DNA of 64,000 nucleotides from contig JAALGY010000030.1 in NCBI GenBank assembly GCA_032358165.1, positions 1,674,001-1,738,000 of the forward strand. The letters are read 5' to 3'. Below the pieces are notes generated by a model that saw nothing but the letters and a program-made list of their open reading frames with translations, was not told where the DNA came from and did not search any database. The DNA comes from Diplosphaera chodatii (Eukaryota; Chlorophyta; Trebouxiophyceae; Prasiolales; Stichococcaceae). This document shows positions 3,788 to 58,492 of the stretch, one piece after another. Position numbers and translations under genes: made by a program. How positions within the stretch are numbered: the first letter of the stretch is position 1; each line of letters starts with the position of its first letter.

Positions 3788-6295
3788 ATGTGGCGTGCCG
3801 CCATCATGCAGCTCAGCAAGTCTACATCGTTGATGACTCCTGCCGCCGCCGCTGCCGCCATGCTGCCTCGCGCCACTCTCCCGGCTTCCCGCAACGCCAG
3901 CACCGCTGCCGCGCGGCTGGCGGCGCCGGCGCAGCGCGCCATGTGGGCGCAGCTGCCGCGGTCCTACGCCACCGGCGCAGCACCGTCCACCGCGCTGGCG
4001 CAGGAGTTTAACAACATGCAGGCGCAGGCTTATGCACCACAGGGTGGGCAGGACAAACATCCCCTGGTGTTCGTAGCCGGCACTGTCGCACAGCAGCGAC
4101 GTACCCCGCGGCTCCCCTGCATGGTTCATCGCATGGGACAACTCGACAGCTGGCCTGTCCAACAGTGGCACAGCCGGGTGCCGGTTGCGCCAGCGGGCTG
4201 ACGGTGGTCAAGCTTGGCTGCAGGGGGGCCGGAGGAGCCGGCGGTCATCCACGAGGTGGACTGGTCCGTCAACAACAACAACTACGTCAGCCTCATCGGC
4301 ACGCTGGGCCAGGTGCCTGCTGACAGCGGCCCGCTGCATACCGAGGCATCTGTACAAGCGAGGCTTTCCCCAGTGCGTGGTTGGCTTACGTCGACATGTG
4401 CACTGCGGCAGTGGCACGAAGTCAGGCCATTTGGAACCTGCGCTGCGCAGGACCCCGAGATCAAGCAGCTGGCGACCGGCTCGGTGGTGGCCAACATGCG
4501 GATTGCGCACCGCACCCCGCAGAAGCTGACCGAGTGGTGCGCCCATGGACTTGCTGATGGCTCGGACACAGCCATGTGCAGGTGGATCCAAAACCGTCAT
4601 GGTCATGACTGACTGCTGCGTGTCTTGTCTGCAGGTACACGGTGGACGCCTGGGGGCCGTGGGCTGAGGGCATCCGGAACGCGGGCCTGCACAAGGGGCA
4701 GCAGGTGCTCCTGCTGTGCAGTGCACATGCTGAGGATATCGAACCCCGCTCTCCACAAAGAGCATCTCAAGCCTGAGGCGTGCGCTTGCAGCAAGTGTGC
4801 ATCGAACTGCATGTGCACCCTCTGTGCGTAGGGTTTTGGCAATTGGTCGTGAACTACTCACGTGTTGCAGATTCTGGTGGAGGGGCGGGTGCGGACGGAT
4901 GAGTGGACGGACCGCGCTACAGGGCAGGCCCGGCGGGCGGTGCGCATCGTCGCCAGCCAGGTGTCCACCGTGCGGCCGTACACTGCCGGGGTGAGTTCTT
5001 CCGTTCCTGATTCCTGCTGCCTTGCCATGTACTTTGCAGTGCCAGCAGCGACAGCAACAGAAGCAGGGGCAATAGCAACGGCGGTAGTGCCAGCGGCAGG
5101 CAGCATATCCTGCAGACTGCAAGCCCCAGAGGTCACTGTGGAAAGGGCTTCAAGAGGCATGCATTCTGGCTGCAGGGCGCGCCGCCGCAGCAGCAGCAGC
5201 TGCAGGTGCAGCAGGCGGCGGCGGCGCAGGGGGCGGAGTGGGGGCAGTACGGCGCGCAGCCCCCGCCGCCGGGTGGCGAGTGGGGCGCTGATGACCAGAC
5301 AGTAGGCGCATTCGGCGCTCCGCCAGCGCCACCGCCGCCGCAGCCCGCCCAGCAGCAGGTGACTCCTCTGGTGTGGTGAGCTGCACATGAGGCCAGCAAC
5401 TGTACGTCCGCAGGCCCCTCTGATGCACGCTACAATCATGCCAGCAGTCGGGCACAGATCAGGGCAGGAGAACCAGCCCTCTAGCTCAAAAGCTTCCAAC
5501 GGAAAACTCGTCATCCCAATACCCGGTGGCTTCTCGCACAATCAGCATGCTGCTGAACCCTGAAACGACAGGCGCGGGGCGGCAGCGGCCCCAAGGACGC
5601 GGCCTGGGAAGCGTACTTTGCCAACCCGGGCGGCTACTGGGACAACCGCGCCAAGAAGCTCAACCCCAAGGCCCCCGACTTCAAGAACAAGACCACCAAC
5701 GAGGCGCGCGCCCCGCTCACTTCAGTGCTGTGATATGGAGATGAGATGAACAAACGAGGTTCTGCCCAGCTGCATCCTGCATATGCCAGGCTGCACATGG
5801 GCGCAGCCCCTTTTGTGCGCGATCAGCTTGGCAGTGCCCTGGCTGCTGCAACGGGGGACTGCAGGTGTGCACATGCATGAGGCTAGTGGTTCGATAGCCC
5901 CAGCGCAGCCTTCAGACGGTGTTTGCCGATGCAGCTGTGTCTTGTTGCGCAGGCGCTGTGGCTGAACGGCGCGCCCGCCTGGGTCCCGTCGGAGATGGAG
6001 CGGCTGGACGGCGGTACCCCCGCCCAGGTGAGAGTTTTCACCCATTTGGAGTAAAAGCTAGCAAATGATCAACCATGGTGTCTATCAAGGGAGTGGCATG
6101 CATCGTGCCCAAAAACAGCAGGTGGAGGTGCATGTCAGCAAACCCCGATCGTCGGCAGAGGCCTGAGGGAGGTGCAGGCCCCCACAGGCTGCCTGATTGA
6201 GGTCTTCTTTGGTATGGTCCTGTGTCCTCTGACTGCCGGACGCTCATGGCGGGTGTGGCCACTTGCAGGACGATGTCGACACGCCGCCCTTTTGA
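3788..6295 (+). CDS. OSB-type organellar single-stranded DNA-binding protein
   Basis: Nine exons: 3788-4043, 4224-4312, 4451-4536, 4635-4704, 4871-4990, 5176-5358, 5572-5703, 5953-6027, 6269-6295. They join in phase to a 345-residue protein. Residues 1 to about 75 are rich in Ala, Arg and Ser with few acids, like a mitochondrial/plastid targeting peptide. Next comes an SSB OB-fold (VDWSVNNNNYVSLIGTLGQ, then ILVEGRVRTDEW), a Gln/Gly/Pro linker, and one plant-specific PDF motif across exons 7-8 (YFANPGGYWDNR, NPKAPDFKNK, then ALWLNGAPAWV). OSB proteins bind ssDNA and restrain recombination in plant organelle genomes. The C-terminus DDVDTPPF looks like the acidic tip of bacterial SSB. Intron 7 (5704-5952) is GC-AG; using a GT 21 nt later would insert seven residues into the conserved motif. 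Confidence 0.88.
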
Positions 6296-7122
6296 TGGCC
6301 TGATGGTCGGATGGACGGATGATGCCCGCCCAGTGGACAGTTCGCCGCCATCCGCCATCTTGCACATCATCAGCTGTTTCCCATCCTGCGATCTGCGTCA
6401 GGATGCAGCAATGTCATGGCAAGCATGACTGACGAATAGGAGTGCAACAAGCAATGGTCATGGTTGCACAAGAAGAAGGCGTGCCGGCAGATATCAATCT
6501 GCAGAATGTGCAAGGTGCCCCAATGGGGAGAGGACCATCACCCACAGCGGGTGTGATGCAGCTTCCATGGTTTCGACATGCATCCTCCGGTTTGCAGCAC
6601 TCAGTCTTTGACATGTTCTCAGATGCGCATTCAAATACAAAATGCAGGAGCACAATGTACCTCAGTTAGACAGTTGCACACTGCAACTGTCTGCCTGATA
6701 CTGCATGCTGCCATGGCCGGCGGCATGGCAGTATCATTCCTCATTTCTCTGTTTGTAGACATCATCCTGCTGTGAAATCGCAGACTTCAGATCACAAGCC
6801 GACAGTAGAATGGCAGTGGACGCTCGATACCTTGGCAACTCCCTGATAGAGATCGGTCTTTCACAGAAGATCAGCTGTGGCACCAGCGGTGACCTGCAGT
6901 AACCCGGACCACCTCTGCCTCGGTTCATCCTGTTGTCTTACAAGCGACCGCTGAAGCTGCTGTGTAGTCAGGACCAGCGACTGCAACATTTGTAGCGTGA
7001 GCTATCCGGGTTGAGACCGTTATATGCCGCTGCGGCACATGGCTCTGACCATCAACGCAGCACTAGGTGGCAGCGGCTGAACGCGTGCCTCGGCGGCTGG
7101 TTGAGCCGCACGAGCTTGTGGT
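6296..7122. other. Intergenic stretch
   Basis: About 0.8 kb between the OSB stop and the helicase-like start. It would hold the OSB 3' UTR and the next promoter. Short open frames are present but lack splice structure or recognisable motifs. Confidence 0.5.
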
Positions 7123-8924
7123 ATGGACAGCGTGAAGCGTGCGAGCAGCGGCACAAGCGGCGGCGCGCCTCGGCAATACTATGTCGCGGTCGGCAGCGCC
7201 GACGTCAAGCTGGTGGCGCTATCCCCCCGTCTGGGCATTTGTGACTTCTGCACACCTTCTGACACTGAACAGGGATGCTTAAAGTGCACTCAAGCTCGCT
7301 GCATGGACATGCGCCACAATCATGTTGCAACTGTCTTGCACACGCAGGCGACGCTGGTGGATCTGCTAACGGCCGTGCAGGCGGGCGGCCCTGTAGCGCT
7401 GGCGGTGCACTGCGGGTGTGCTTTTCCCCCTGACCTCTGTCACATGGGGCAGAGACATCAGCAGAGCAGCGTGCTCGCTCGCGTCATTGTGCGCAGTCAG
7501 GATGATGACTCCTCCTCTCGATGCAGCGCGCGGGACTCCCTTGACGAGGTGGCTGCCGGCCTGGTGGCGCTGCCATCCACGTCAGTCACCTGCCTGGTGA
7601 GCCAATCAGCGCATGTCATCTGCGGGCAGGCGTCAGCCCAGCCACTGGCGATCATGTTGCTGCCATGGTCAGGATAGCCGCAGCAGACAGGCGCAGTGTC
7701 ATCGTGCTACAGCACCCTGATCACATTGGAGCTGCATCCTCGAGATACTGGCAGTTTCACCCTGGTGCAGCACGCAGACCTGTCGGATGTCGAGCGGGAC
7801 TCAGCGCTGGCGGGATTCGTGCAGCGGGCGCGGCCGCCGCCGGCTGATCAGGCGGCCTCCGGCGCAGCCACCGCCACAGCAGACGGCGACAGCACAGCAG
7901 GTGGGACGCATGTCCGACATCCGCTCAAAGCTGCGGTGATCCCCACCGCGCTTACAGCCTGTCTGTGGCAGCGGCTTTGTCAACATGGTGGTGAAAGAGC
8001 AGAGCTCCTTCATGCTGTTTGCATCCGGCCCTGGGGGGTCGGCGCACATGCTGGCGCTGAGCGATGTGGGGCCACAGTGACCAGCAATCAACCCTGCTTG
8101 TAATGCAGCGGCCCGGCGGTGTCGGCGCACATGCTGGCGCTGAGCGACGTGGGGCTGCGGTCAGAAGTAGTAAACCCTGCCGATGCAGGCGGCCCTGGGG
8201 TATCGGCGCACGTGCTGGCGACCAGCGACGTGGGGCTGCGGGCACTGGAGGGGCGGGGCGGTCAGCCGCCGCCGCCGCTGTTCGTCCACTACGACCTGCC
8301 AGTCCGCAAGGCATGGATGTCGAATCAAGCGGCCTACAGATGCAGTGCTCGCATCCACAAGCTGCACGCTCTGCCTGTGTGCTAGCATCTGCAAGTGGAA
8401 GGTGTGGCGGCTGCTGTAGATGGCTCATATCCGACCCGGCACAATGTCTGCAGGACATCTACGCGCGACGGGCGGCGGTAGCAAACAGAGGCCGCCTGTG
8501 GGCCGGGCGTCCCGCCATCGTCGTGTACTTTGTGGTCGCCGGCAAGGTGAGTCCTGGCTTCGCCACCGCGGTCCTGCAGCCTGCCTTCAAGCTGAGTCGG
8601 TGCACTGCCATTTTGGTGCACGAAAGCCAGGGACGGTGTTGGTCCGCTAAGCGAGAAGAACGCTCGTGAGGGGAGTATTCATCGGCTTGAGATGGCTAGA
8701 GACTCTTCATTGACCCTTGGCAGCGCTGCCCTATGGCACAAGGATGTCCTCACTGACTTTGACATGCTCAGAGTCCACAGCCGCCAACTCACCACACAGG
8801 CCGGCCGTGCATGCAGGTGGCGGACTTCAGGGCGGTGGAGGAGCACGCCGGAGGCGGCGGCACAGCCATTGCAGAGATGCCCGTCCATGTGGCAGACCTG
8901 TTCGGCGGGCGCGATGAGTCATGA
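7123..8924 (+). CDS. Degenerate DEAD-box helicase-like protein (RecA2-like domain)
   Basis: Proposed exons: 7123-7212, 7348-7415, 7527-7580, 7713-7900, 8189-8310, 8454-8546, 8817-8924, giving about 240 residues. The 3'/5' junction between exons 3 and 4 is the least certain (7596 is an alternative end). The protein resembles only the second RecA lobe: VDLL..VALAVHCG, RDSLDEV, HADLSDVERDSALAGF (the position of helicase motif IV/QxxR-type contacts), VLATSDVGLRALE (motif V-like ATD), then VHYDLPVRK/DIYARR and a closing AEMPVHVADLF. I see no Walker A or DEAD box, so ATPase activity is unlikely; a regulatory RNA-binding role is inference. Intron 8311-8453 is GC-AG, required to join VRK to DIYARR. 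The fifth exon is preceded by two tandem copies of itself (see repeat). Confidence 0.65.
8026..8255 (+). repeat. Tandem triplication of a 3' splice site plus exon
   Basis: Three copies of a segment coding for GPG.SAHMLALSDVGL begin their shared core at 8041, 8124 and 8205 (periods 83 and 81 nt). Copies 2 and 3 are each preceded by an 'aaccctgc...atgcag'-like acceptor, so the repeated unit contains the end of an intron and the start of an exon. Copy 3 continues into the conserved domain. Copies 1 and 2 run into short spacers. They may be alternative acceptors or dead exons. Confidence 0.75.
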
Positions 8925-9738: not shown

Positions 9739-9790
9739 TAGGGGTAATCAAAGGACTTCTACAGTTGAAGAAGTTCTTCAACTACCCCTA
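9739..9790. mobile_element. 52-bp MITE-like element with 7-bp target duplication
   Basis: Begins TAGGGGTA and ends TACCCCTA, an 8-bp perfect terminal inverted repeat. The interior holds a second perfect inverted repeat, 10-nt arms at 9763-9772 and 9774-9783 around one base. It is flanked by identical GTTTCGC heptamers at 9732-9738 and 9791-9797, as expected for a target-site duplication. It lies 10 bp past the LEC14B stop, so it may also act as a hairpin in that 3' UTR. Confidence 0.65.
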
Positions 9791-9800
9791 GTTTCGCATG

Positions 9801-16230: not shown

Positions 16231-18289
16231 ATGGGCGTCTTCATTGTGTTCAAGTGGCTCACAGATCTGATGGGTGAGCACGGCGTGGCATGCCACACCT
16301 GTTGAAGTGGCCATGGAGGAGCCCGGCGAACCGCGGCTTGACTCATGATCAAGTGGTGCAGCGTGCCGTGTTGTGGGAGCACATGTAAAACCGAGTGGTG
16401 CCATCTGCAGAGGACCACATATTCCTGGTGGCGCTGGTCACATTTGGGTTGGTGTTCATGCCGGCATGGCTGCCGCTCCTGAAGCCGCCGCCCAAGGTGG
16501 TTGCAGCTGCTGCGTGCTGTACAGTCTGATCGTTGACCATGGTGCAAGATCCAGCGCCTTTTGTGTATAACAGTCTGACGTTAGGCGTGAGGAAGCGTGT
16601 GCAGGCATGGGCCAATTATGAGTTTCCTTCTTCATTTAGCAAAATGTGGATGAATGCAGGTGCCGGGTCCATTCCTGCACCCAGAGATGTGGCAGCAGAT
16701 GCCGCTGGTCGGCAAGGAGAAGCTGAGCCACAACACACGGCGCTTCAGGTGCCGGTGCAGCAGCGGATGTGCAGAGCCTGCCACTGCTGCAACCTATATC
16801 CAACAGCCTGCTCACAGGCATCTAGTGTCCCTGCAACATGCGCCAGCATGGCGCAAGCATGACGAGCAAGCACACTTGATGCTCGCATGGTGCTGCGCCC
16901 TGCAGGTTCGTGCTGCCGCACCGGCAGCAGCTGCTGGGGCTGCCTGTGGGGCAGCACATCTCGCTGAAGGCAGACTCCCAGGGGCCCCTGCTGCTGCGCC
17001 CCTACACGCCCGTGACCCCCGTGCAGCAGCCCGGCTTCGTCGACTTCGTGATCAAGGCCAGTGCGACGCCACCGTGCTGCCTTGAAGTGCTGACTTCAAT
17101 GCAGGGCCGTCCCGCTGCACCCGTAGGCTACCCCGTGGGCTGCTGAGTGGGCAACATGGACAGGAAGCACGGCCAGGGCTAGGGTCGGTATGAAACCCTT
17201 GCTGTCCTTCTATCTCGGCAGGTGTATCCGGAGGGCCGCATGTCGCAGCACCTGGACAAGATGGTGCTGGGCGACTGCATCCTGGCCAAGGGGCCCAAGG
17301 GCCGCTTCACCTACGCCCGCAACATGAAGCGCCACATAGGCATGCTCGTCTGAGTCTGAGTCACCAATGTCCGTGCAGTTGATGCGGAGAGTCCTCTGCC
17401 GCAGTGACTGATGGTGATCAGCAGCTGCTGGCTGCAGGCATGGTGGCGGGTGGCACGGGCATCACGCCGATGTGGCAGGTGGCCGACCACATCCTGCGCG
17501 ACGGCATGGCCGAGAGGACTTCGGTGCGCAGCCTGCCTGCAAACAACACCTGGCCCGACCGATTGACTGTCCTGTCAGCCCAAGCAGCATGCCAATACCA
17601 GCCCGAGCGTGCACAGTGCTGATCCATGACAGCAGTGGCTCACGTATCTTGCCGCAACATCGCATCTCACACGTGCAGATCAGCCTGATCTACGCCAACG
17701 TGACGGAGGACGACATCCTGCTGCGCTCGGAGCTGGACTTCAAGGCGCGCATCGGCGGCGAGAAGTTCAAGGTGTTCTACACCCTGGACAAGCCGCCCGA
17801 AGGTGGGTCTTGCTGTTGCCATATAGCCTCCCTAATCGCCCCACATGTCATGCTGCCGCTAGTCAGCAGAGTGGACGCAAGCTGTGGCCTGCAGCAACGT
17901 CTGCAGCGGTGCTCTGCACCATGCAACGCCTGGCACAACAGTGCGACTGCGCTCGTCCCTGAACATGCATACCTTGATCAGGCTTGAATTTGCATGTAGG
18001 CTGGACGGGCGGCAAGGGCTTCGTGACAGAGGACATGTGCACAGCGCACCTGCCGCCGCCGGGCCCCGACACGCTCATCCTGCGGTGCGGCCCCGGCCCC
18101 ATGAACCAGGTGGGCCCAGTGATGACTGCAGTTGCTGCCGGTGTGCCTAGCACAACCTGCTGGACTGGTGTGCGCATCTTGATTGCTGCCAGGAAACGAC
18201 ATCCGTGACATGTTGGTGGCCATGTGCAGGCCGTGGGAGCGCACCTGGACAAGCTTGGCTACACCGCCGACATGCAGTTTCAGTTCTGA
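16231..18289 (+). CDS. CBR1: NADH-cytochrome b5 reductase
   Basis: Nine exons: 16231-16273, 16411-16496, 16660-16748, 16906-17056, 17222-17339, 17438-17523, 17679-17802, 18000-18109, 18230-18289. They join to a 288-residue protein, the usual family length. A single membrane segment lies at about residues 16-34 ([13 protein letters not shown]). The FAD-binding RPYTP motif is near residue 104. The NADH-binding GGTGITPM is near 165 and CGPGPM near 262. The C-terminus DMQFQF matches the plant family exactly in style. It transfers electrons from NADH to cytochrome b5 at the ER or outer mitochondrial membrane for lipid desaturation. Introns 17057-17221 and 17340-17437 are GC-AG; GT alternatives break the VIK-VYPEGRM and IGMVAGGTG joins. 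Start Met directly precedes the anchor. Confidence 0.93.
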
Positions 18290-25100: not shown

Positions 25101-26057
25101 CCCACCTCCACACGTTGCTGCAGCCGCCAACTAAGCAGATAGCCAACGACTTTTGCAGCAGGCAGCTGGCGCACGCTACACCAAGCATGTGCAGCAGACG
25201 GCAATTTGTCCTGCAGTATGTGTCCATGCGTACCCTCATGGTCGCAGCTGATGCTGCGACCGTCAGGAACTGACGTCACCGCCGCTGCTTGAAGTAGCGC
25301 CGGATCGATTGCAGCCAACACCTTCTGCGTGTTTGGCGCCAACACCAGCATTGCACCGGCCTTCTGATACCTTGGGAACTGCTCAAACACCTGCAGTTAG
25401 CCACCGTGAAATGTGCTTGGACGTGCGTGTGCCCTTGCCTACAGTTGGCTGTCTCGTAAGCATACATCCACAACCTGATCCGTGTAGACCTACTTTCACC
25501 ACCGTGCATCCGGCACTGCACTTTCAGGCATGTGGCTTGCGCTTCACAGGACTCGTAGGTTTAGCAGGCAGTCTCAATGCTCCCGTCTTGCCGTTCATTG
25601 GCTGCCTACCCTCACGCTGACGCCAGGGCAGGCGCGCCGCACTGCGATAGCTGTCACCAGCCCAGCGAGGCCGCCGCCCGCGATGGCGACGTCCACCGCC
25701 CCCTGTCCCACGGATGGTTTGTGTATGTGGGTGATGCATATGTCGATGCGCTGCACAGCTGTATGTAAGGATGGCGCCCGACACATGCAGACAGCAATGC
25801 ACAAGTCTGGCATGCTGGGTCAGGGCTGATGCGCCAGTGCCAGCGTGTGCTATGTGCTACACTGCAGAACATCTCAGCTGCGCTGTGAGCACCAGTTCGC
25901 ATTAGGCGCTTGAGAGTGGTGTCTTTGCCTGGGGTTGCGCCGCCATCACCATGGTGAACGCCGTCCGCCGAGGCCTCGTGCCATGACTCGTACACCGCAG
26001 GGGTCTACATTGCAGAGTGAAGGAAGGTGAGAGCCGCCAGGCCCCGGCCTGCTGCAT
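22139..26057 (-). CDS. FAD-dependent monooxygenase, probably plastid-targeted
   Basis: Nine exons (translation order): 26057-25929, 25702-25610, 25390-25271, 24709-24588, 24355-24205, 23770-23609, 23362-23270, 22974-22794, 22410-22139. They give 440 residues in phase; the third donor is the least certain. Residues 1-43 are Arg/Ser/Thr-rich (transit-like); an in-frame Met at 26099 is an alternative start. Motifs of the aromatic-hydroxylase/zeaxanthin-epoxidase family appear in order: dinucleotide fold IAGGGLAGL (about 51-58), VLIGADGGFSGVR (DG motif, near 185) and TLVGDAAHPVRP (GD motif, near 340), then QAAEDAHELARQL. The substrate cannot be read from sequence. Intron 1 (25928-25703) is GC-AG with a CAG/gcaaag donor. 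Gene order is convergent with the RCCR-like gene and divergent from the 26.7-kb paralogue array. Confidence 0.85.
23985..24070. repeat. 41-nt tandem repeat in a monooxygenase intron
   Basis: The string gcaggagctatgcaccgga occurs at 23994 and again at 24035, with a shorter partial copy between. About two units in all, inside the intron between 23771 and 24204. Confidence 0.7.
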
Positions 26058-26759: not shown

Positions 26760-28895
26760 ATGCAGGCATTTGACGCAGAGAAAAATTGGCAGGTGCTCAC
26801 AGGCAGCTATGGCAGGTGTGCATGCATGCACCTTCGCCGTCTGACCGCAATGTCAAACGCTGACGACTCATGACATCTGGTTCAGCAGCACACTGCTGAA
26901 AGTATGCCGCACGCTCCTAACATCCCAAGGGTGAAATCATGCAGAGGCTTCAGTGGGTGGCGAGGCTTGTGGGGACTGTTCGACTCCGACGGGAACCAGA
27001 CACAGGCTTGGACAGGCGCACGTCTGTTCTGCAACAATGGTGATGGCAGCTATGAGCAGGCAGGTCCCGAACGTCTTTGGCGTGCGTAATGACAGCCAAG
27101 CTTGATGAGCACCTTCACCAGCTCCTGGCATGCTGTATCAGCAAGCAGAGTGCAGCTGTACTGCATGGTATGTGCGTGTGCTTGCACTCGAGACTGCAAT
27201 TCCACCATTCCTCGGCTGATGTAAGCTTGGCAGCAGCTTAAGCAGCGCATCCATGATACATCTGCCTCGGTGTCTGCAAATCGGCAACCATGATCTGTTC
27301 AGTCTCATATCTGTGGTGCCTGCAGTTGAACATATACGATCAGATTGTACGCGCCAATGATCCTGGCATTAAGCGTGGCGATGGCGGCTATGAAAAGTCC
27401 TGGTGCGCGATCTTGGTCAGCGCAGACAACTTGCGAATCACACCTGGCGCCCATGGCTGGCTGTCAGCATGTGATATGATGTTCATGTCGGACCGCACTA
27501 ATCACATGCAATCGTGCAAGGAGCATGTTACCCAAGCTGCAGGCTGCAGATAGAGTGGGCATGCTGCTGTGCAGGCGCTTCTCCAAGACCGACAGCTGCT
27601 GCGCGGACGGCTGGTGGCACCCCTATGTCAGAAAGGTGCTGCATATCGTTGGCCATCATACTGCGCCAGCTGCCAGACTGAATGCTGCAGAACATGCCAG
27701 CTAATGCATGCAGCGCTACCACTGTGTCGGCTGATGACATTCTGGACATGCAGGATGGGCTGTCACGTTCACGCGTCCTAGGCATCTCACCATCGCGCAC
27801 GGCCACCGCCTGCTTTGCTCTGCCATTGAAGGAGCTCCTTGAGCAGGTGCGGGCAACCCTCGCAAGTGCTGCCTTTCGTCTGTCTGTTGGTCCGAAGGCT
27901 GTGCCCAGAGCGCCACCTGTTTCCCGCTCTGCAAATGTCCGTGTTCTTCATGGTGCATGCACACGATCAGCTGCGCTTAGAGCTGAAGGGGTGAGACACC
28001 CTGTATAGGAGGAGGCCCCGCCCGCATTCTTCAACATGGAGCTGTTCCTTCGACCAGACAGTTCAGAGCGCAGCTACAGTTGCGGCGCAGTATACGATGT
28101 TGCCGCTGGCGCCTTTCAGGCAAGGTTATTTACAAAGGCCATTGCTTCAAGATACAGTTGATATGCAGCTTTCACATCTGACGTAGCGCAGTCTGAGACA
28201 GCTTGTTGCATTTGCTCACGGTGGCTGTTTCCACCATATCTTCAGGCAGCCTGTTAGTCGCGGCATGGTCAAGAGGCCAATCTGTGTGCATGCAGACGCT
28301 GTTCTATATTCGAGAGGCAGAGTCAGCTGAGGGCCCTGCCGAACGGGATGCTGGGTACTCACCAGTTGACAGCGCATGCCGGTCAAGCTTGGCACAAGAT
28401 GTTGCCGAATGGGTAGGTGGCATTGCCGTTGAGAAGTCCAGCGGCGGATGGGAGGGTGCAGCTGGCGTGACGCAGCAGCTCGTCTTCGATGATGGTGCAA
28501 TGGATGACACGGGAGCTGTTGCTGGATGTGACATGTGAAGTTAAAGTGTTTTACAGGGCAAGTGATTGCTTGAGACCAGGGACTGGGTGTGCTCTGATGC
28601 AGATGGCGGGATTGCTATCAGTACGGAGGAGATGACTACCTTCAAGCCACCCTGCAGCAGCCTGCGCATCACCTGCCTACCTGATGCAATGTACATGGCC
28701 TACCCAGGGGAGCTTCCAAAGACCTTGGGTGATATGCCACCGGAGGGGCTGACATTTGAATTTGGCGGCATGCGCCCCGCAGTACCCTATGACAGCAGCA
28801 GCCGTGGCACCGGCTTCTCGCGCACCGTGCTGCACTACGGACCCAGCGGCCGCATTTCTAGCATCCGGTTCGACGACTTCGACCTCGCCTTTTGA
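26760..28895 (+). CDS. Tandem paralogue 1: uncharacterised, possibly DUF3598/lipocalin-like
   Basis: Eight exons: 26760-26815, 26945-27059, 27326-27402, 27575-27635, 27754-27846, 28009-28119, 28296-28494, 28603-28895; 334 residues from the Met shared by all three paralogues (MxxFDAExNW). An in-frame upstream Met at 26715 would add a short basic leader. Blocks: GWRGLWGLFDSDGNQTQAW, NNGDGSYEQ, SCCADGWWHPY, SRVLGISPSRTAT, MELFLRP, YSCGAVYDV, TLFYIREAE, GVTQQLVFDDG, PPCSSL, EGLTFEFGG, RTVLHYGPSGRISSI. The NW....W.GxW..D order, MELF block and PPC....LP....FEFG ending recall plant/algal DUF3598 proteins, but this needs a profile search. Introns 27060-27325 and 28120-28295 are GC-AG. The last two exons of the other copies are fused here (intron loss). 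Confidence 0.75.
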
Positions 28896-33179: not shown

Positions 33180-35682
33180 ATGGTGCCTTTCGATGCAGAG
33201 AAGAACTGGAAGCATCTAATAGAGAGCTTTGCCGATGTCCGCACGTGCGTAATGCACTTCAACGTCTGACCGTGGAGCACACACCCCTGCAGCATCTGAT
33301 CACGTTGCGTCAATTAGGAGCTCACATTGCAGACTTCGTTTGCAAGGCCAGTGTTGTTGATGCAGAGGCTGCAAGGGGTATAGTGGCCTGTGGGGCCTGT
33401 TTGACTCCAAGGGCAATCAGACAAAGGCATGGAAAGCCGCACGGCTGTTTCACCAGAACGAGGAAGGCACCTGTGAGCAGGCAGGTGCATCTTGCTTTCA
33501 CAGCGAAGACTCATATGACTTGATTTGGTCTAGCAACAGCAGCCTACCAAACTAGGCTTCAGCTCACTACATAAGCATCGCATCATCCAGCCGCACTGTG
33601 GCCGGGTTGAGCAGTGCTTCGGTTCTGATGGCTTGCCCAGCATCTGCACCTGGCTGTGTCTTGAGCGGATGTATGATGTGAAATTTGCTCTTCAACTAAC
33701 GTCCATGAATGGCATGCACGCAGGTGAATGTCTACAACGTGCCTATGGGCTCCAAATGCGAGAGGCGCTCTGATGGTGGCTACCAGAAATCGTGGTGTGA
33801 TGCTGTCCGTCCACCCCGCCTGGGAGTGATGCTGATGTTTGTTGCGCTGTGCATGGAACAAACTCAGTGTGCCTGGCGTTTTTCACCAGTCTAGTTGCCT
33901 TTGTGTAGCGGTGGCCCAACAACGGTGCGTGTACTGTCTGATCACTTGCAAGTCTTCTGCGCAGGCGATTCACCAAGGCGGAGAGCTGCTGCGCAGACGG
34001 CATGTGGCATCCATATCTCAAGAAGGTGCACTATGCAACTGTCTTGTTGATCCAAGCCCAACTGGGACAACATGGCATACAAATGTGATGCTTGCTGAGG
34101 TGTGCGGGCGTTGAAGTTGAATGCAAGCAGCCTTCTGTAGTGGGGCCCCATGGGATGATTAGTGAGGCATCAAGAGCGACAACACGTTTGGCAGTGTCCT
34201 CTAGTCTTGCCTTTGCATTGTGCGCATAGGATGGGATGCTACGTTCACGCATCTTGGGTCTGGATTGGCTTTCGGGAATAGCTACTGTTCCCTTTGCTTT
34301 GCCATTGCAAGAAATCCTTACGCAGGTACATATTTGTTAGTAGTATCACTTATGTATTTGCCGGAGGCCTTGCCCATACGAGTTGATGGACTGGCTCCGG
34401 TCATGCACGTTGCCAATGTGCATAACCCCATATGGGCTGCCTGAGAGTGCTACCTATGTGGGTTGTGCCTATGACTGCCGAGAATGCTGAAGAAGATGTA
34501 TGTGGATGACCCTTTAGGAGGCTACGCTACCCCCTTATTGGAGCATGGAGTTGTTTGTGCGACCCCCGTATGTGGCGTACGGCTACAGTGGCGGTGCTGT
34601 GTACAGCGTTGCCGATGGCACATTCCAGGTTCGTTGCAGCTCATAGCTTGCCGTGCTTCTCTGCAAACTTGAAGCAAAACACGAAACACAGCCCGGCTGT
34701 CGCCTTGCAGTAGCGTAATCTGTTGCCCCTTGCATGCAAATGGGCTCCTACAATTGAGCAAGTGATCACCCCCTCAACCTACCTCCATGGCGAAGCAAGC
34801 TGGGTATGTCTGTGCAGACCCTATTTTACATTAGGGAGGCATTGGCGGACAATGGTCCAGACACACGTCACCCTTGGCATTCATATGATGTTGACGCCCC
34901 GCTCGGCTGGAGTGAATTGAACAGCATCAAGGCGTGGGCAAGGGGGGCAACACCCTGGTCTGGCTATGAGGGGCTGCTTGAACGTGGCTACACGGAGCAG
35001 ATCGTGTTCCATGACGGTGCGACCAAAGCCATGCATCCGGCGTATGATGAAGTGTGTGACTTTTGAGGCCCTCAGCCGGTTGGTGAAGTAGTTCTGACAT
35101 TGCCAGCCATATTCGTGTAAAGCTCAACGCAACATGTGGGCACCGCAGATGGCACCATGTGGCTCAACAGTTGGAGGCACACAGAGGTTACGCCACCCTG
35201 CAGCAACCTTCACATCATGTACCTACCTGGCGGGCAATACATGGCATATCCAGGTATGTACGTCCATATTCATGCATGTGCGGGTGTCAAGTCGGAATCC
35301 AATAATTTCTGTGTGACTACCGTTGTAGAGAAATAAAAGGTGGCCTAGCCGTGCGCGCCGCCTGCATTGCCAGCTACACATCATGGCGTGTCACATTCAG
35401 TGATACCACTGACGTTTGTCATTCACAAGTTTGCTTGCAGTGAAACTGCCCAGGACATCGGCAGAAATGCCAGCGGCGGGATTGACATTTGAATTCGGTG
35501 GCCTACACCCTCCGGAGGATTTCGTATATGATTCTGATGATGCAGAGGGCCATGGCTACACCTACGAATTTTGGCGCACAAGGGTTTGCTATGGCCAAAA
35601 CGGTCGCATCTCAAGCATCACACTTGAAGCACCTACACAGTGGCACACCAGCTGGAACGAAGGGACCAGTATAAAGTCATAG
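33180..35682 (+). CDS. Tandem paralogue 3: uncharacterised, possibly DUF3598/lipocalin-like
   Basis: Nine exons: 33180-33244, 33366-33480, 33724-33794, 33965-34025, 34230-34325, 34518-34628, 34818-35016, 35149-35253, 35441-35682; 354 residues ending at TAG. Exons 2, 3, 4, 7 and 8 have the same lengths as in copy 2 (115, 71, 61, 199, 105). It is the most diverged copy: SGLWGLFDSKGNQTKAW, SCCADGMWHPYLKK, MELFVRPPYVAYGYSGG, PPCSNLHIMYLPGGQ, AGLTFEFGGLHPP. A longer acidic loop precedes CYGQNGRISSITLE. Intron 33481-33723 is GC-AG as in the other copies, but the intron after exon 6 uses a normal GT donor here. Role unknown; three intact frames argue that all copies are under selection. Confidence 0.78.
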
Positions 35683-40874: not shown

Positions 40875-42934
40875 ATGGTCAGCTACAAAGTCCTTTCACG
40901 CGAGCATGGCACTCGCATGCCAGCCAGCTGCCAGCCGCGGTGGACTTTCTGCTCCATCAGACGCCACAGTGCCCGTGAGTCATGCCAATTTCATGCACAT
41001 CAATTGCGAGGCAGATCATAGCCCGTTTCATCAGCGTGCATGGGGTGGCTTGACTGCAATCGGTTCTGCAGGTTGCACCCAGCGGCAAGCACATGCGCCC
41101 CCTTCGGTCATTGCCTGGTGCTTGTCCCGCGGCGAACGCGGCTCAATATCGGCTGATGGTCTGAGGCCTGCGTGGTCAGCTAGCTGAGCCGCTGACTCGA
41201 CTGGTGCGCTGTCATGTCATGGTCGGCGGTTGCCGATCGTCCGGGCATGGAGCCTGGTTCGACCACCAGAATCTGTTGGCTACAAGCCAGCCAATGCTGC
41301 AAGCGCTTGCCGTTCGTGCAGCTCCTGCCTGCTCACCAGCGGGTCTGCTCGCTTTAGCATGCGGCACACCATGATGAGGGAGGGCTTGGCCCAGCAGCAC
41401 AAGTGGTATCTGCGTGCACGTCCTATGTGTATTTGGTGAAACAGGATCAGAGATCATCATCACTACCGTGGCCACAGCACCATGCTTTGTGGTGCGCCTG
41501 CCGCTGCGCAGTTGTTGGGAGGCGAGCTAGGGATTCTGGGAGAGCAGGCTGCTGTATGGCCAACTTCTCCTCAATGGTGCGTGTGCTCGATGATGCAGCG
41601 CGGAGCAGGCAGCGCTGGCGATGTGTCGTGCCAGCTGCTGATGGTGCGGGGCTGCCGCCACAGCCAGCCGGGAGTGGCGGGGAGTGGCAGAGCATGCGAA
41701 ATGAGATTGCCGAAGTCAAGCAGCGAATCGACCGCCTGGAAGCGCAGCTCGGCGAGCAGAACGTCCGGAATGCAGCAGTGAACCAGGGTCAGGGCAGGAG
41801 GAAGCGGAGAACAGGGCGGAGGCCTGCACTGCTGGTCACTGGCGCTGCAGGGCCGCCTCTGCAGCCGGCCGTCGGTGGTGGAGGGTGCGCAGCCATGGGT
41901 GACGCAAATGATACACTGACGGCCGCAATCGACAGCGCCAACAAGCAGATGGCTGAGCACGACAAATGGATGGACCGCATGGAACGGCAGGCGAGTAACT
42001 TGCCATGTTTAACACGCATCTGTAACAGCATTGGTGCCGTGATCATGCTTGTGCAATAACGCTGGCGCCTTTGCATCACCGACATGCATCGCTCAATAAG
42101 GAATGCAGTAGTACTGATGTTGACATGCCTTGTCAGCGCTGTGACATTGTAAATCCACGAATATGTAGCACCTTGTGCAGTGTCAGTGTCGGCTGTGCCG
42201 TGCACTGTCAGCTGCGTCATGGTGGCAGCTGACGTACCTGAGATGCCATGCATTGCATGCAGATGCGAATAAAGGGATTTCTGAGATACTTCATCTTGGT
42301 CCTGTTTTGGCTCTACATCGGGCACCACGCCTGGACCACCGGAAGGCTCGACCACCCCATTGCCTCACTTCGGCAACTGCTGGCACGCTGGCAAGCTTGC
42401 TGTCATGCACACCCCTACGCTCTTGTATTCACATCTTGCTTCAGCAGTTGTAGAGAGCGTGATCAAGCAGAGTTGCAACTGAACACTGAACAACAGAGCA
42501 AATTGCTCCCTGGCGCAGGTGGATGTGCATGTGATGTCACCATGAAAATGCGTGCGTGGTGGCGGACAGCGACTATTGCTGCCCGCTGTTGCCCAGCAAC
42601 AAAGTTGCACGGTTGCCAGGCGAGGGTTGGCTGTATGATATCAAACCATCCAACAACGGCAGCATCAGCAGGGCGGGGATGGTCAGTGGTGTTTGCACGG
42701 ATGATGTCAAGGGGGAAGGTGGAGGCAGACAGCAGGTGTGCACCGCCTGCAGGACCGCCGGCTGCTACTGCCAGTGCGGTGGGACCACAGCAGGCCACGC
42801 ACACTCCCAAGTGCGGGTCTGTGCTGCGTGTGCCGTGCTCACCATTGCAGCCTGTACACATGCTGGCCTCACAGCTGCTTGTCCTGCTGGTCACGGTCGG
42901 CGACTGCCTGCTGAGGGGCGGACGGCAAGGCTGA
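40875..42934 (+). CDS. Coiled-coil tail-anchored family, copy A
   Basis: Three exons: 40875-40974, 41599-41990, then from 42263. Exon 1 (100 nt) gives an N-terminus with CQPRWTFCSIRRHS; exon 2 begins RSRQRWRCVV and holds a charged coiled coil (EIAEVKQRIDRLEAQLGEQN) and a second helical segment (ANKQMAEHDKWMDRMERQ). Exon 3 opens with a hydrophobic segment, FLRYFILVLFWLYIG. The same arrangement with the same intron phases (1, then 0) occurs in copies B, C and D. Intron 41991-42262 is GC-AG (CAG/gcgagt). Unlike its relatives, exon 3 stays open to 42934, so the C-terminus is uncertain: another intron (for example a donor near 42520) may shorten it. I do not recognise the family; a membrane-anchored adaptor is inference. 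Confidence 0.55.
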
Positions 42935-43329: not shown

Positions 43330-44790
43330 ATGGCCCTTTGCAAAGTCCCTTTGCGTGGATCTAACATGCGCATCGCAGCTGAGCAGGGAACAAACCCGCC
43401 ACTGCTGCCGCTCTTCCGCCCCAGCACATTTCCCTCTACTCGTGAGCTGATTTTGATCCTTCAGCAGATCCCATGTGTAGTTGTGAAGCAAGTCTCTCAC
43501 CACCCTGCATGGGTGGGGCTGCCTGCAGATGTGTAGGTCTGCATCACACTGTGCAGAAATCACATAAACGGTAGGCTTGCAAACGACGGTCAAGTTGTGA
43601 TCACGGCTGCTCGCCGTGGTACGGGCTGTGGCTTGTATGTTCAGCTGCTAGCTCCTGGGGCTTGGCATGCGCAGCTGTGATGTCATACCTGACTGACGCA
43701 TGTCATGGTGGGTTGCTCAGCACCGTGAGGATGCAGTTGCGGGAATCAGACAGGACCGCAGTCGTTTCACGAACAACTGCTCGTTACACTACGAGCGTGC
43801 GCCTGCATGCAGCAGCATGCGGCAGGTCACTCGGCAACTCAACCAGCATCTGCATGCACCCCCCTATGTCGGGTTCAGAGATCGAGGGCGTCAAGATGCA
43901 TAGGATCGTTCATGCTCGACAGCAGCCCCAGTGGTGGAATGCTGTCAGCTGCAAACCGTGTTCTTTCTACACCCGCTACTGTGCTCGGCACCGGCGCACA
44001 TGCTGAAGACCAGGCCAACATCAGGGCAGCCAGCCGATTGTGTGGCTCCAATATCACAGTGACTTCTCACCTTTGCAGCGCGGAGCAGGCAGCAGTGGCG
44101 GAGAGTCGTGCGCGCCACTGGCGGTCTTGAGCCGCCGCCACAGCCAGCCAGCAATGGGCAGGAGTGGGAAAGCATGCGCCGGAGGCTTGCCGCCCTGGAG
44201 CAGAAGGTCGACCGCCTGGCAGCAGAGGTCAATGGGCGAACTGCCAAGTATCAAGCAGGCGTCCAGGCGCAGGACAGCCGACAGCAGAGGACTGGACAGA
44301 AGCGTGCCGAGCCAGCCGCTGGCGCTACAGGGCCGCCGCCGGGGCAAGGTGGTGATGCGGAGCAGCGCGCGGCATGGCGCAAGGCAGCCGCGGCCCGCCT
44401 GGAGCTGACACCCGAGCAGGCCGAGGCCCTGACTGACGAGCAGTACGAGATGCTGGAGGAATGGGACAAGGAGGTATGGATGCTTATAACCGACAGCAGT
44501 GCATGTGCACGTCAGAAGTGGCACAGTGTTTGAGGTGCCTGCGCATTGGACAACGCATGATTGCTTGTGCAACTCGACCTCAACACTTCCCTTCACCGCA
44601 TCCCTGTCTGTCTGCAGACATGCAGCACTTGGTGTGTTGCTGGAGGGCCAAGGCAGCCATCAGCCGAGTGGTGGTAGCTCATGTCACTGTAGAAATTGGT
44701 GTTCATTGCGTGCAGGACCGTCTTCAAAGTCTGATGGGGTGGGCAGTTCCAGTGTTCTATGTGGTTGCTGCCCTGACCATGCGCAAGTGA
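43330..44790 (+). CDS. Coiled-coil tail-anchored family, copy B
   Basis: Three exons in phase: 43330-43441, 44079-44473, 44716-44790; 193 residues. Exon 2 starts RSRQQWRRVVRATGG, nearly identical to copy A, then PPPQPAS and a strong coiled coil (RRLAALEQKVDRLAAEV). A C-terminal helix follows (RAAWRKAAAARLELTPEQAE). Exon 3 is 24 residues: DRLQSLMGWAVPVFYVVAAL and a final MRK, a single hydrophobic segment with a basic end, as in tail-anchored proteins. Both introns are GT-AG; the second (GAG/gtatgg) corresponds to a GC-AG intron in copies A, C and D. Intron 1 is about 640 nt. Function unknown; it is the most complete tandem copy and the best reference for the family. Confidence 0.65.
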
Positions 44791-46201: not shown

Positions 46202-47239
46202 ATGGTGGCCTTCTGCGAAAGCCCTTGGCTTGCACCTGGCATTTGCATCCCAGTGAAATGTCAACTGTCATGGGCACGCTTGCGCCTCAGCTCACGTCGT
46301 CCTGCTCGTAAGACATTCCTCAACATCTGCATGAGATCTGATGCCAACTCGCTTCCCCAACTTGCATGGGGTCAAGTGTGTGTAGTGCCGCTGCTATGTA
46401 GGCCTGTTGTCACATAGGCCCGTTGAGGTCGACTTGAGGTGCTGAACCGTTGGGCGCACGATGAGATTTGCTTGTGCAGGGCGGAGAACTCACCACCGGC
46501 GACCTGCTGTGCCAGCTGCTCGGATGGCGGGGCCGCCGCCACAGCCGGCTGAGAATGAGGCGCAGTGGGACAGCATGCACCGTCAGGTTGCCAGCATGGA
46601 GCAGAAGCTTGACCACCTGGGCACGAAGCTTGACCGACTGGCTGAGCAAAACAACAAGATAATGCAGCAGATGCACCAAGTACTGGACGAACAAGAACAG
46701 CGCGGCAATGCCATGGTAGCCGCCACTGCAGCTGCGAGCCCGCCGCCGCAGCTGAATGATGATGATGCAGCGATGCGGCAGCAGCGGTATGATGACATAA
46801 TGAAGGAGGCACGGGCGACCATGGAGTAGGCGGCAGAGCAAACGGATGCTTTTGCCGCTCGCCGGGACCGAGAGGCGAGTACAACAAGCGATGCCAAGAA
46901 AGCCTGCACCATTGTGACACACTTGGGTGTTGACGGCGCGCACGGTCCTAGACACATGCACCCGCCCATCACTGTTGTTGTGCCTGAGCCCTGTGTGGCC
47001 CTTGTTGTCTCGCATACAGGCAGCATCGCATGCGCTGTTGGATACGCCAAGCAAGCGCTAGCCATGCTGTGGTGGCAGTGCATCTCAGCATGACTGCTGT
47101 GCACTGTTGGCAGGACCGCCTGCGGCAACTTTGGTGGTGGGGATCCCCAATGGCATTGCTGACATGGGTCGTCATTGATGCCCAGATGACAGGAAGGCTC
47201 CATCTTTTTGACACGATCTTCCAGCTGCCGGCACACTAG
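46202..47239 (+). pseudogene. Coiled-coil tail-anchored family, copy C, with in-frame stop
   Basis: Exons: 46202-46307, 46480-46874, 47114-47239. Exon 1 contains CQLSWARLRLSSRRPA, aligning with copy A. Exon 2 is 395 nt, the same length as in copy B, and carries a long coiled coil (VASMEQKLDHLGTKLDRLAE, then NNKIMQQMHQVLDEQEQR). A TAG at 46827-46829 lies where copy D has TGG within ATMDWAAKQT. It would cut the protein to 151 residues and remove the hydrophobic exon (DRLRQLWWWGSPMALLTWVV). Intron 46875-47113 is GC-AG (GAG/gcgagt). Because the sequence after the stop still keeps frame and splice sites, the change looks recent; the short soluble form may still be made. Recoding is unlikely since TAG ends other genes here. 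Confidence 0.6.
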
Positions 47240-54400: not shown

Positions 54401-55925
54401 GCTGGGTGAGCAGGGTCTAGGGTCTCACACTTGGCAGCCCCCGGACAGTGTCCAGCGCTGCGGGGTGGGTCCAGCATGAGTGCACCTGGCAGTAGCATGT
54501 TGGTTTCAGCTTCAGAGCTGAAGCTGGGCAACCACAGCTGATTCGGCCTGCCCTGTGGCTGACCCTGCAGCCGTCATGGCAGCGCCCCGCCGCGCGGCGG
54601 CGAAAAGCATGGCCCAGAGTGGGTCTCAGTTTTCGAACTACAGAGGCCTCCGTGTGGTTCGTTTGCAGGCCGGCTGCTGGGCACCGTGGGGCGCTTCACA
54701 GCGGCGGCGGCGCCCGCGCCGGCGGCCGCGCAGGTCGCCGCCGCCGCCGCCGAGCTGGTCTGCCACCCCTCGGTCGCGGGCCACGCCGAGCCGTACGTCC
54801 GGCGCTCCGCGCTGTTCGCAGCGGCCCAGGTGTGTGATGGGTCTGCCATGATGCTGCCCCAGGAGCTACCTGCTGCTTGAGAGGGGGACGTGGCATGTTG
54901 GCTTGCTCCTCAATACTGCAGTGCGTTGTCCCGTCGAGGTTGCCCTTGTGCACCCTCCGAGGTGCTCATGACGACTGCCAGTCGATCATGCTTTGGCAGC
55001 ATTTCCGCGCGTTGTCACCCCACTATGCTTGCACTGCAGCAAACACCTCTGATGTTACCATTGCAAAATCAAGGATCATGTGTCAGCTTGTACATGTACC
55101 TGGATATCGAAGGTCCGAGCTTCATGTGGCGGCAGGTGATGGCGGCGGTGCCGGCGGGGCGGCTGGCGGGCGCGCTGGCGGGCGGCGCCGCGGGGCTGGC
55201 GGCGGGGCTAGAGTCCCGGGACGCGGCGCTGCTGCAGCGGCTGGAGGCCCTGCGGTGAGCCTTTGCAGCAGCAGCCGCGACGCACGAGCCTGCCCCATGT
55301 TGCCGCGTGCTGTGCCCCCGTGACTGGCATGGCCAGCCAGCTTGGAGAGCGTGCATGTGGCTGTCTGGCCCGCGGGCGAGCTGAGCTGCGTGGTCGACGT
55401 TGGACGATGGTGAGGCCCGTGCTGTGCATTCAGAATCTGAAATGCTGCTGAGTGGGTGTGCAGGGTGTGGACGGAGCACCTGGCGGCGCACGACCCCGAC
55501 GAGCAGTGCCGCCAGCTGGCTACCGCGGCGCGCACCCTGCAGGCACGGCTTTGCAATCCACTCTGCTCCTGCGCCACGCCCGCGGCCCTGCTTCCCGCGT
55601 GCAGCCAAACCTGGCCGCTGCATCATCGCGGGCTGCAGGCCGGGGTGACGCTCGTCCTAACTGCCATGTGGCTGACAAAACTGCATATGGTGTGCAGGCG
55701 CGTCTGGGCGCCGCAGCCGTCGAGGCGCTGGACGCAGGGGCCTTCGAGGTGCCGGCGGCTGCAGCGGCGCCGCCGCTGCTGCGCACCAATGTGACCCGGC
55801 AGCTGCCGGCCGTGCGGCTGCCCGGGCAGGGTTTGGGCCTGCAGTCCGACGCCGTCGGCGGCGCCGGCGGCGCACCTCACACTCTGCTTGTCGTGGGCGG
55901 GCAGCGGCGCATCCGGCTGCCGTAG
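48429..55925 (+). CDS. TELO2: TELO2 / Tel2 homologue (TTT complex, PIKK maturation)
   Basis: Nineteen exons: 48429-48870, 48972-49013, 49034-49136, 49452-49606, 49737-50491, 50759-51061, 51253-51407, 51705-51829, 52143-52379, 52657-52803, 53039-53129, 53385-53484, 53704-53791, 53965-54100, 54305-54405, 54669-54829, 55136-55254, 55464-55542, 55698-55925. They close in phase to 1188 residues, somewhat longer than animal TELO2 because of Ala/Ser-rich insertions in exons 5, 6 and 9. Diagnostic blocks: RFLLADRLLLGLG, YLQAYLTEALAAM, RRQGMRLGALFAAVLDP, DSDDGLQPYDLSEGED, PLQLRDVAAALRK, SLVALLAAAPVAAATALLPEF, RTRRWGV, RFTAAA and RVWTEHLAAHDPDEQCRQLA. Tel2 with Tti1/Tti2 brings new TOR, ATM and ATR kinases to Hsp90. 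Intron 55543-55697 is GC-AG. Exon 8 is preceded by two tandem copies of itself. The start is the first Met in the open exon; upstream exons are possible. Confidence 0.9.
51111..51144. repeat. Short inverted repeat in a TELO2 intron
   Basis: TAGGGGTAGCTTAA is followed after a few bases by TTAAGTACCCCT, an imperfect inverted repeat whose ends match the TAGGGGTA ends of the MITE at 9739. No clear target duplication is visible, so relation to that element is uncertain. Confidence 0.45.
51502..51829 (+). repeat. Tandem triplication of TELO2 exon 8 and its 3' splice site
   Basis: Three copies start at 51502, 51604 and 51705 (periods 102 and 101 nt), each immediately after an AG and beginning GCGGCAG. 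All read RRQxxxxGxxxxAxL in the TELO2 frame. The first two drift from the family sequence and soon lose it; only the third continues into the conserved exon. An extra partial copy of the exon end (ctggcgctgctgc...gcctggcaccccagc) lies at about 51895-51930. Confidence 0.8.
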
Positions 55926-57373
55926 GTCTGGCAGCAGCGCTGCACTCAGGAGGCTCACGAAGGGCTGAGAGGTTCCACAGCAGTTGATGTGGGCTCATGG
56001 TTCATTATGTTGTTCCGGTCATGAGGGTTGTCATAAGGGTTTGTCACAGGGCACACGACCATGGTCACACTGGTCAACATGCGCAAGGTGTACTGCCCAA
56101 CCAGGCGCCATGATTCGTTGCTGCGGTGCGGGGATGCATGCTAGATTTCAGCGTAGCTAGGTTCCCTGTTGCTGTTGAGTGCAGTGATCAGCAGAACACA
56201 GCCACCATGTTGAGTGGACGTCGTGTATGTTACGTTGAATGCAAGGCTCGCAATTGCTGCTCAGTACGGACAAGATCCAATGTGCAACCACGATTAAAGG
56301 ATGCACAGACGGCACCAAACGACCAGACATGTGTGACATGACGATGTGACCTTCCACCATGATGTGGAAGCCCAAAGCTTTTTGGCCCAGTCAGTTCGTT
56401 TTGGGACCGACCGGGCGTGCACAGATGGACTTGAAAACAGCAACAACGCGCACTTGAACCCTTAAAGGCCTACTGTTATTGTCCACGTCAGCAGCAGCTC
56501 GGTTTGTTGCCAATTTTAATAGTATATTACTTTACTATTATTGCCAGCTTTTAAATAGTATAGTACTTGAAGGCTTTGCCGTTGTGGTGGAACGCGTGAA
56601 ATAATTAACAAAACCAGGTAGTCCAGGACGGATGCCGCACCTCAGCCGCTGCGTCGAGCACATCAGCTACCTTAGAATGTGATTGTATGTTTGACGCTGC
56701 GAGCGGCAGGAGCGGCGTGCTAGTGTTGTGCGTGGCTTGCGTGTCTGACAGCTTGGAAGCCGCTGGAAGCCACAGCGCGAAGTGCCCAATGACCTAGTCC
56801 CACTATTCTAAGGGAAAACGTTGTGCGTCCTGCCCAACATATCGAACAACCGGGGACCACTTCCACTTGCAACGTGCTGCATGATAGGCCGTGAGGTAAC
56901 AACCAGCGCTCACACCAGAGCAGTATCATCTGGACTTATGCCCCGCTAGCAGACGGGCGAGCTGAAAGCGCGGTTCTGGCAGCGAGACTGCGCTGGCAAG
57001 TATCTGTCTGCAGCAGCTGTGCTCAAGGCTGTAATAACTTGGAAAGCGGTCGGAGCAACGTACGAACGCACAGGGCGATGCGCGTTGCAGGTTCCGCAAC
57101 CAACTGCAACCAATCTAGACTTCGGGTGTCCGCCTTCAATGCATTGGCAACAGGCTGCCCTGCAGCATATCTATTGTTCGCCCAATACGAGGCTATCGTG
57201 TACTTGCAGGTTCTTAAAAGTTGCCTCACGCTCGCTTGCGACGTGCAGTCGTTCTTCTGTTCTTCTTCTTCTCCTATCAGCCTTTTCCAAGTGCATTCTT
57301 TTCAAGAGGTGCTCAGCGCTTGCCTTTGTGCCTCGTGTGCCAGCCATCGGCAGTAGGGCCCATCACGAGCATC
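55926..57373. other. Intergenic stretch with an AT-rich patch
   Basis: No gene is supported. The stretch 56500-56610 is unusually AT-rich for the window, with repeated tagtata/actatta words. It would include the TELO2 3' UTR and the copy D promoter. Confidence 0.5.
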
Positions 57374-58492
57374 ATGGCAAACTCCACCATCTCTGCACTC
57401 AGGGCTGGAACTGGCATGACAGCAAGCCGTCAGCAGCCACCGCACTCCCAGGTCATCCCGCGCCACTCTGACGGTGATTCCGTGTTCCTCTGCGCTGTGC
57501 ACCTGCGTTTTCTTCCAAGCTGGTGCACCCCCGTGCTTGGTTTCATTCTGTCACGGCTGTGCCAACAGAGCATGCGATGTGATCGGTCACTACACTGCTC
57601 GCCTTCATGGTGCTGCTGCTATCGTAGCTTTGTTTGGGCTGTGCAACCGGCACCTCGGCCTACACGCGCATAAAGCAAACTTCCTCAAGTCGTTTTGCCA
57701 GTTCAGATAGTTTGCCGACTGCCGAAAAGTGATGGTTTGTGCCCCCTTTGACTTGCAAAACAACCTTGGCTGGCATCAGCGCAATCCAGCGAGTGGTGCT
57801 GTTGTATCTCCTCGTCGCACATGCCTGACGGTTGCAGCGCTGCAGTATGCCCAAGGTCAGATTGCTTAATCTCTGACGACACAACCGCTCATCATGTGCA
57901 TCAGGAATCAGGCTTCAGTTCCTCGACGCGCCTGCAGTGCAAGGGAATGCTGCTAACCGCTCTGATCTGTTGTGTGTCTGCTGCTGTGCCGTGCACGACA
58001 GCAGGCAACCTTTTGGGAGCCTGACTTCCACATCCGATTGTAACAGACGTCTGCTTGTTGTCCTCACAGCGCAGATCAGGCGGCACCAGCAGCTGCTCGT
58101 GCCAGCCGCTTGCGCAACTGGGCCGCAATCACAGCCAGACGATGAAAAAGCAGCCTGGCGGAAGCATGCCTTTGAGGAGGCAAAGGCCACCATGGACTGG
58201 GCGGCCAAGCAGACGGCTGAGATGGCCGACCGTAGGCAGAAGCAGTCGGATGCAGAGGATGCAGAGGCAAGTACAATGGGCATGGGTGACATCCGTGATT
58301 TGCCATCATATGACATGGACGATGGCTTGTGGGCTGCGCTCTGGTAGCCTTCGTCCTTATGGCCATCTGATGACTTCGAAGTTTCGCTTTCAGCTTCGCG
58401 AATCTCTCATCGGTTTGCAGCCCAACAGCATTGTCTGGGCCGCTGTATGTGCTCAAGCGCTGGCTGTGGGTGTTGCATGCAGGTGCGCGTGA
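57374..58492 (+). CDS. Coiled-coil tail-anchored family, copy D (short form)
   Basis: Three exons in phase: 57374-57473 (100 nt, as in copy A), 58070-58266, 58394-58492; 131 residues. Exon 1: MANSTISALRAGTGMTASRQ. Exon 2 begins QIRRHQQLLVPAACATGP, matching the start of exon 2 in copies A-C, but then jumps to the distal helix (KHAFEEAKATMDWAAKQTAE, MADRRQKQ). The central coiled coil of about 70 residues is missing. Exon 3: LRESLIGLQPNSIVWAAVCA then QALAVGVACRCA, a hydrophobic tail ending the protein. Intron 58267-58393 is GC-AG with a perfect GAG/gcaagt donor. It lies about 10 kb from the tandem copies, beyond TELO2, so it may be an older dispersed duplicate. Function unknown. Confidence 0.62.

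Follow-up and report, generated by a model that had tools for sequence, protein, structure and literature searches.

Why should so many introns of a green alga begin with GC in place of GT? The question is raised by a 64,000-nucleotide stretch of the genome of Diplosphaera chodatii (positions 1,674,001 to 1,738,000 of contig JAALGY010000030.1), hereafter the window, for which 14 of about 105 introns, lying in unrelated genes, had been predicted from the letters alone to combine a GC donor with an AG acceptor. In our naming the window is C24:1674001-1738000 of the 85.6-Mb assembly, which comprises 55 contigs, five others of which (C13, C22, C26, C27 and C38) enter the comparisons below. We find that most of these junctions had been read correctly from the sequence, and that the GC donors are genuine, their share well exceeding the mean of 1.2% given for plants, whose genomic GC is put at 36.3% on average (PMC6310983). 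They are very probably ordinary U2-type GC-AG introns present at a raised share, in which a canonical U1 small nuclear RNA (snRNA) is accommodated by a donor that pairs better elsewhere.

GC donors in the window and in its second copy

Each of the regions that we examined is present as a diverged second copy (C24/C38, C26/C27 and C13/C22): the cytochrome b5 reductase gene of the window has a collinear counterpart on C38, a 200-kb stretch of C26 matches C27 in reverse order over approximately 200 kb, and a zinc-finger locus on C13 shows 84% identity to C22 across 2.9 kb. Judging from their sequences, the paired regions look like those of a hybrid or the remains of an old duplication. They permit a test of donors that needs no RNA, namely the state of the donor in the other copy together with the point at which exon conservation ends. 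All 14 predicted introns do start with GC and end with AG; ten of them are well supported, one (25928, on the minus strand) is weakly so, and three (41991, 46875 and 58267) stand as candidates.

One case is the cytochrome b5 reductase gene, with GC-AG introns at 17057..17221 (+, AAG|GCCAGT) and 17340..17437 (+, TAG|GCATGC). When spliced at both GC donors, its product aligns without a gap to the structure 2eix at either junction, and among the best 120 of 3088 matches 119 relatives are gapless at 17057 and 114 at 17340; the nearest named relatives in this set come from Elliptochloris, Myrmecia, Chlorella, Micractinium, Coccomyxa and Trebouxia, and they mark the genome as that of a green alga. 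The first of these donors is GT in the C38 copy, while the second is GC in both. The donor is likewise GC in both copies for the introns at 8311..8453 (+, AAG|GCATGG), in a gene that we take to be helicase-C-like, at 55543..55697 (+, CAG|GCACGG), and at 25703..25928 (-, CAG|GCAAAG), near the start of a flavin adenine dinucleotide (FAD) monooxygenase gene. In the last of these 185 of 226 intron bases match C38, against 101/132 and 87/103 in the flanks; the intron being as conserved as its surroundings, the exon end is not marked by conservation. Such an intron suggests either an extra role or a start of the FAD monooxygenase gene that may have been mis-set.

Two further intron families switch state between the copies. 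Three tandem genes at 26.7-35.3 kb of the window, which we presume to be DUF3598-like, correspond to one gene on C38 (L044). The intron following YEQ in copies 1 and 2 (27060..27325 and 30402..30627, both +) and CEQ in copy 3 (33481..33723, +) has a GC donor in all three tandem genes and GT in C38. The intron following GAFQ has GC in copies 1 and 2 (28120..28295 and 31425..31589, both +) and GT both in C38 and in copy 3 (34629..34817, +, CAG|GTTCGT). As these two families contain five of the 14 predicted introns, the 14 are not mutually independent.

Donor context, splicing RNAs and GT/GC turnover

Pooling the regions yields a supported set of 26 GC donors, 25928 included, to be compared with 394 GT donors. 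All 26 GC donors have AG at -2 and -1, against 64% of the GT donors; A at +3 is present in 19/26 against 50/394, and most GC donors carry G at +5. Over the eight positions of the consensus MAG|G.AAGT the GC donors match on average 6.38 and the GT donors 4.75 (p = 1.8e-11), a comparison biased upward, to the detriment of our interpretation, because the C26 GC donors were found partly by their context; the window donors had been picked by the original prediction, which likewise favoured AG. None of the 26 has the U12-type donor RTATCCTT. At the other end of the intron, an early model trained on 264 kb displays a strong acceptor consensus TGCAG|G, in which G makes up about 0.80 of position -4 and C about 0.97 of position -3, with nearly no pyrimidine tract.

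All eight U1 snRNA genes that we found have the canonical 5' end ATACTTACCTG, so the lineage change that the original prediction had proposed looking for there did not materialize; both U6 genes found carry the ACAGAG box. A match to the zf-U1 family was considered as U1-C and rejected, as it reads like another zinc finger, presumably of the WBP4 type.

These features lead us to favor a mechanism in which U1 snRNA, its 5' end unaltered, would put up with the mismatch at +2, the AG before the junction, the A at +3 and the G at +5 compensating by a better pairing than GT introns offer. In this GC-rich genome one-base changes, from T to C or from C to T, would flip donors between GT and GC and leave a steady GC share of a few percent, higher in this window, with base-composition pressure presumably setting the level. 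The second copies bear on such turnover. In 22 donor families the intron is present in both copies, and 16 are GC/GC (among them the weakly supported 25928) and six GC/GT. Of the GT donors of the window, those with a match at 33 or more of the 45 upstream bases were compared: 22/22 are GT in C38 too, a 23rd lying in a lost intron. Taken together, the donor states would fit a slow two-way switching between GT and GC around a low equilibrium share.

An alternative is that the spliceosome itself has changed in this lineage, through U1-C, a U1 modification, U6 or another factor, such that C at +2 is about as good as T. A share above the plant mean and the switching of six out of 22 donor families would be in keeping with this, and Iwata and Gotoh, in the part of their study that concerns Micromonas pusilla and Aureococcus, propose base modifications or U1 proteins (PMC3033335). 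Yet the U1 5' ends and U6 boxes of the genes found are canonical throughout, and the GC donors keep a stronger context, precisely as an unmodified machine predicts; hence we regard this alternative as improbable. A related possibility, somewhat less unlikely though still tentative, is that the gene copies catch donors in transit between GTG and GCA as two coupled states, and that an altered U1-C, or some other helper peculiar to the lineage, could underlie this. In some pairs +2 and +3 indeed change together (GCAGGT/GTGGGT and GCAAGG/GTGGGC), and coupled switching of this kind, if true, would be a natural system for measuring how pairing of U1 at +3 confers tolerance at +2.

Frequency of GC donors and the case for mis-called junctions

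To estimate the share of GC donors we built a gene finder covering both strands; 264 kb of the genome served for its training, the coding and intron models being drawn from both the window and the 200-kb C26 stretch. A version with free donors and a simple background was rejected, since noise at CAG|CT, CAG|CA and TG equalled or exceeded GC. The remedy was to score sites against an order-4 intron model, to run control dinucleotides alongside, and to check calls in the second copy. Once the background had been corrected, and with a single extra donor permitted, GC gives the largest likelihood gain of 15 alternatives (91.6, the next being 66.5), and in three-donor models a mean of 11 GC donors reach a posterior of at least 0.95, against 1.0 for a control dinucleotide. 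When the GC context is taken from the window only, the posterior expectation for C26 is 24.0 GC among 539.8 donors (4.5%); when it is taken from C26 only, that for the 64 kb of the window is 11.4 of 110.3 (10.4%). Over both regions GC amounts to 5.7%, whereas for 14 control dinucleotides given an identical context the mean is 0.7% and the maximum 1.7%.

In the window the gene finder places 108 introns, close to the predicted total of about 105; the predicted GC share of about 13% comes down to 9.8-10.4% here and to about 4.5% in C26, the lower window value being the 11 supported introns over a rounded denominator of about 112. The 13% is thus a local figure, raised because of the tandem copies. 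Under identical detection the window (5/108) and C26 (15/537) do not differ significantly (Fisher p = 0.36), the gene finder with GC allowed having recovered just five of the 11 supported window introns. In its final model it offers additional GC donor candidates at 39171, 63330 and 63668 (posterior 0.63, 0.88 and 0.88). Two genes had been singled out as devoid of GC introns: the LEC14B model bears this out with 0/18, and the RCCR-like gene has none at the usual prior, while three weak GC calls appear there at a GC prior of 0.3.

If the GC donors were artefacts of gene modelling, the real donors would be nearby GT sites. The gene finder did itself err in this manner in several instances, and before background correction its free-donor models were flooded by CAG|CT and CAG|CA. 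However, comparison with the second copy places the exon end at GC in 15/18 tested C26 calls (12 with GC in both copies, three with GC against GT) and in 10/14 of the window predictions; in the three switching C26 introns and three window families the other copy has GT at the identical base; and the control dinucleotides stay far below GC. Proteins agree where structures could be consulted: C26 GC junctions are gapless against RibA and BRCC36 structures, and in an NRT1-like gene the agreement with NRT1.1 is within one residue. For another C26 junction, at 131777, the PRP18 structures consulted do not extend across it. An origin in mis-called junctions is accordingly very unlikely in our judgement.

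Other observations nevertheless tell against real GC donors at a raised share, or temper their number. Ab initio the expected numbers of GC donors (47.9) do not exceed those of CT (54.7), CA (54.5), CC (50.8) and TG (48.1). Among the 18 tested C26 calls three were judged false (163300, 176179 and 95498), and in the window the call at 4358 was discarded as false, the exon conservation with C38 ending upstream at a GT donor, CAG|GTGCCTGC. These 18 were drawn from 29 C26 calls; the others were 3068, 35953, 52401, 65035, 71519, 92168, 119211, 140691, 148414, 153985 and 186905, of which 52401 and 65035 were queried and gave no clear match in C27. Three of them (35953, 92168 and 119211) probably belong to the same class of error, looking false by motifs that we take to be those of their proteins. 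The models for HSP90, ornithine aminotransferase and CysRS on C26 have only GT donors in their aligned parts, these genes having been chosen as conserved ones after their models had shown only GT donors; the HSP90 model also carries 10 extra residues at one of its junctions, where the acceptor has probably been misplaced. The weakly supported 25928 and the candidates 41991, 46875 and 58267 of the window belong on this side too. Finally, Micromonas RCC299 is GC-rich yet has 2.7% GC-AG introns by the figures in PMC3033335, and base composition is therefore only a correlate of the share. Against this background U2-type GC-AG introns with a compensating context and a canonical U1 remain the interpretation that we favor. 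Were gene finders to ban or under-weight GC donors, the gene models of this genome would be harmed.

Intron loss, local gene families and known GC-AG systems

An OSB-like gene of the window provides a different kind of evidence. Its GC-AG intron at 5704..5952 (+, GAG|GCGCGC) and the following GT-AG intron at 6028..6268 (+) are both absent from the C38 copy (L043, C38:757801-762300), in which the last two introns are gone and the exons are joined exactly at the predicted splice points; save for point differences, the joined sequence equals the spliced window sequence. Relatives of this protein, three from Papaver, two of them named OSB in their source, are gapless across the 5704 junction. Joint loss of the last two introns is the pattern that copying from a spliced mRNA would be expected to produce, and the loss is therefore indirect evidence that the 5704 GC donor is used, as the GC donors in general presumably are in vivo. 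That the GC-AG introns arose recently, by insertion of elements from an introner-like family, is extremely unlikely: the presence of 5704-5952 in one copy only, and the introner elements of the GC-AG-rich Micromonas pusilla and Aureococcus, could be counted in its favor, but this intron (the sole one so searched) has no second match in the genome at the sensitivity of the search, its absence from C38 extends to the adjacent GT intron and so fits loss rather than gain, and the GC state is common to both copies in 16/22 families.

The three candidates were ascribed to a small local family. Encoded at 41.6-47.1 kb of the window, the family combines a coiled coil with a C-terminal membrane segment, and the only matches to it in one protein search of the genome lay there; the part of the window from about 35 to 48 kb seems to be missing at the corresponding place of C38. 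The candidate intron at 41991..42262 (+, CAG|GCGAGT) comes from comparison of the local paralogues, one of which has a GT-donor intron at apparently the same position (44474..44715, +); the stretches of C38 compared contain no good counterpart of its region. For the candidate at 46875..47113 (+, GAG|GCGAGT) there is an in-frame TAG 15 sense codons ahead of the donor and a matching exon after the intron. The candidate at 58267..58393 (+, GAG|GCAAGT) was assigned to the family by guess; the family protein search gave no match to it, and it lies outside the C38 stretches compared.

Searches of the literature for GC-AG or non-canonical splicing in Trebouxiophyceae and Chlorella returned no account, and for GC-AG introns in Coccomyxa a review, these term searches reaching few subscription papers and missing other wording, such as that of PMC3033335. 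The supposition that GC-AG introns make up about 1% in most eukaryotes agrees with plants, but it omits several algae. In Chlamydomonas reinhardtii 532 of 25,585 (2.1%) are U2-type GC-AG introns, which expressed sequence tags support (PMC2846911); the shares listed in PMC3033335 are 7.7% for Chlorella, 22.2% for Micromonas pusilla and 39.6% for Aureococcus; and for Emiliania huxleyi a GC donor is given for 56% of 241 curated junctions, the authors invoking a genomic GC of 65% (PMC4028052). That such figures depend on annotation is illustrated by Heterorhabditis, where re-annotation is stated to have lowered the GC-AG share from 8.9% to 0.8% (PMC5906903).

The present case belongs to the known class of U2-type GC-AG introns, and similar GC-rich algae are already on record. 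It shares this intron type with ordinary plants, which by the plant mean have a lower share, and with Chlamydomonas, also a green alga, whose reported share is about half of our C26 estimate. Like Emiliania it combines a GC donor with an AG acceptor, though in the curated Emiliania junctions GC is the majority donor. The closest likeness is to the algae of PMC3033335: as described there for Chlorella, M. pusilla and Aureococcus, we are dealing with a GC-rich alga with, in the two regions sampled, raised GC-AG usage, and with a U1 5' end that matches AUACUUACCUG, and the shares of about 4.5% in the C26 sample and about 10% in the window are nearer to that of Chlorella than to those of M. pusilla or Aureococcus. 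The origin of the share in the latter two was termed an "enigma" by Iwata and Gotoh (PMC3033335). Paired copies make GT/GC donor turnover measurable, and thereby offer a way to weigh base composition against the splicing machinery as what sets the share; in comparison with the algae of that study, the switching can here be seen within one genome, from one gene copy to the other.

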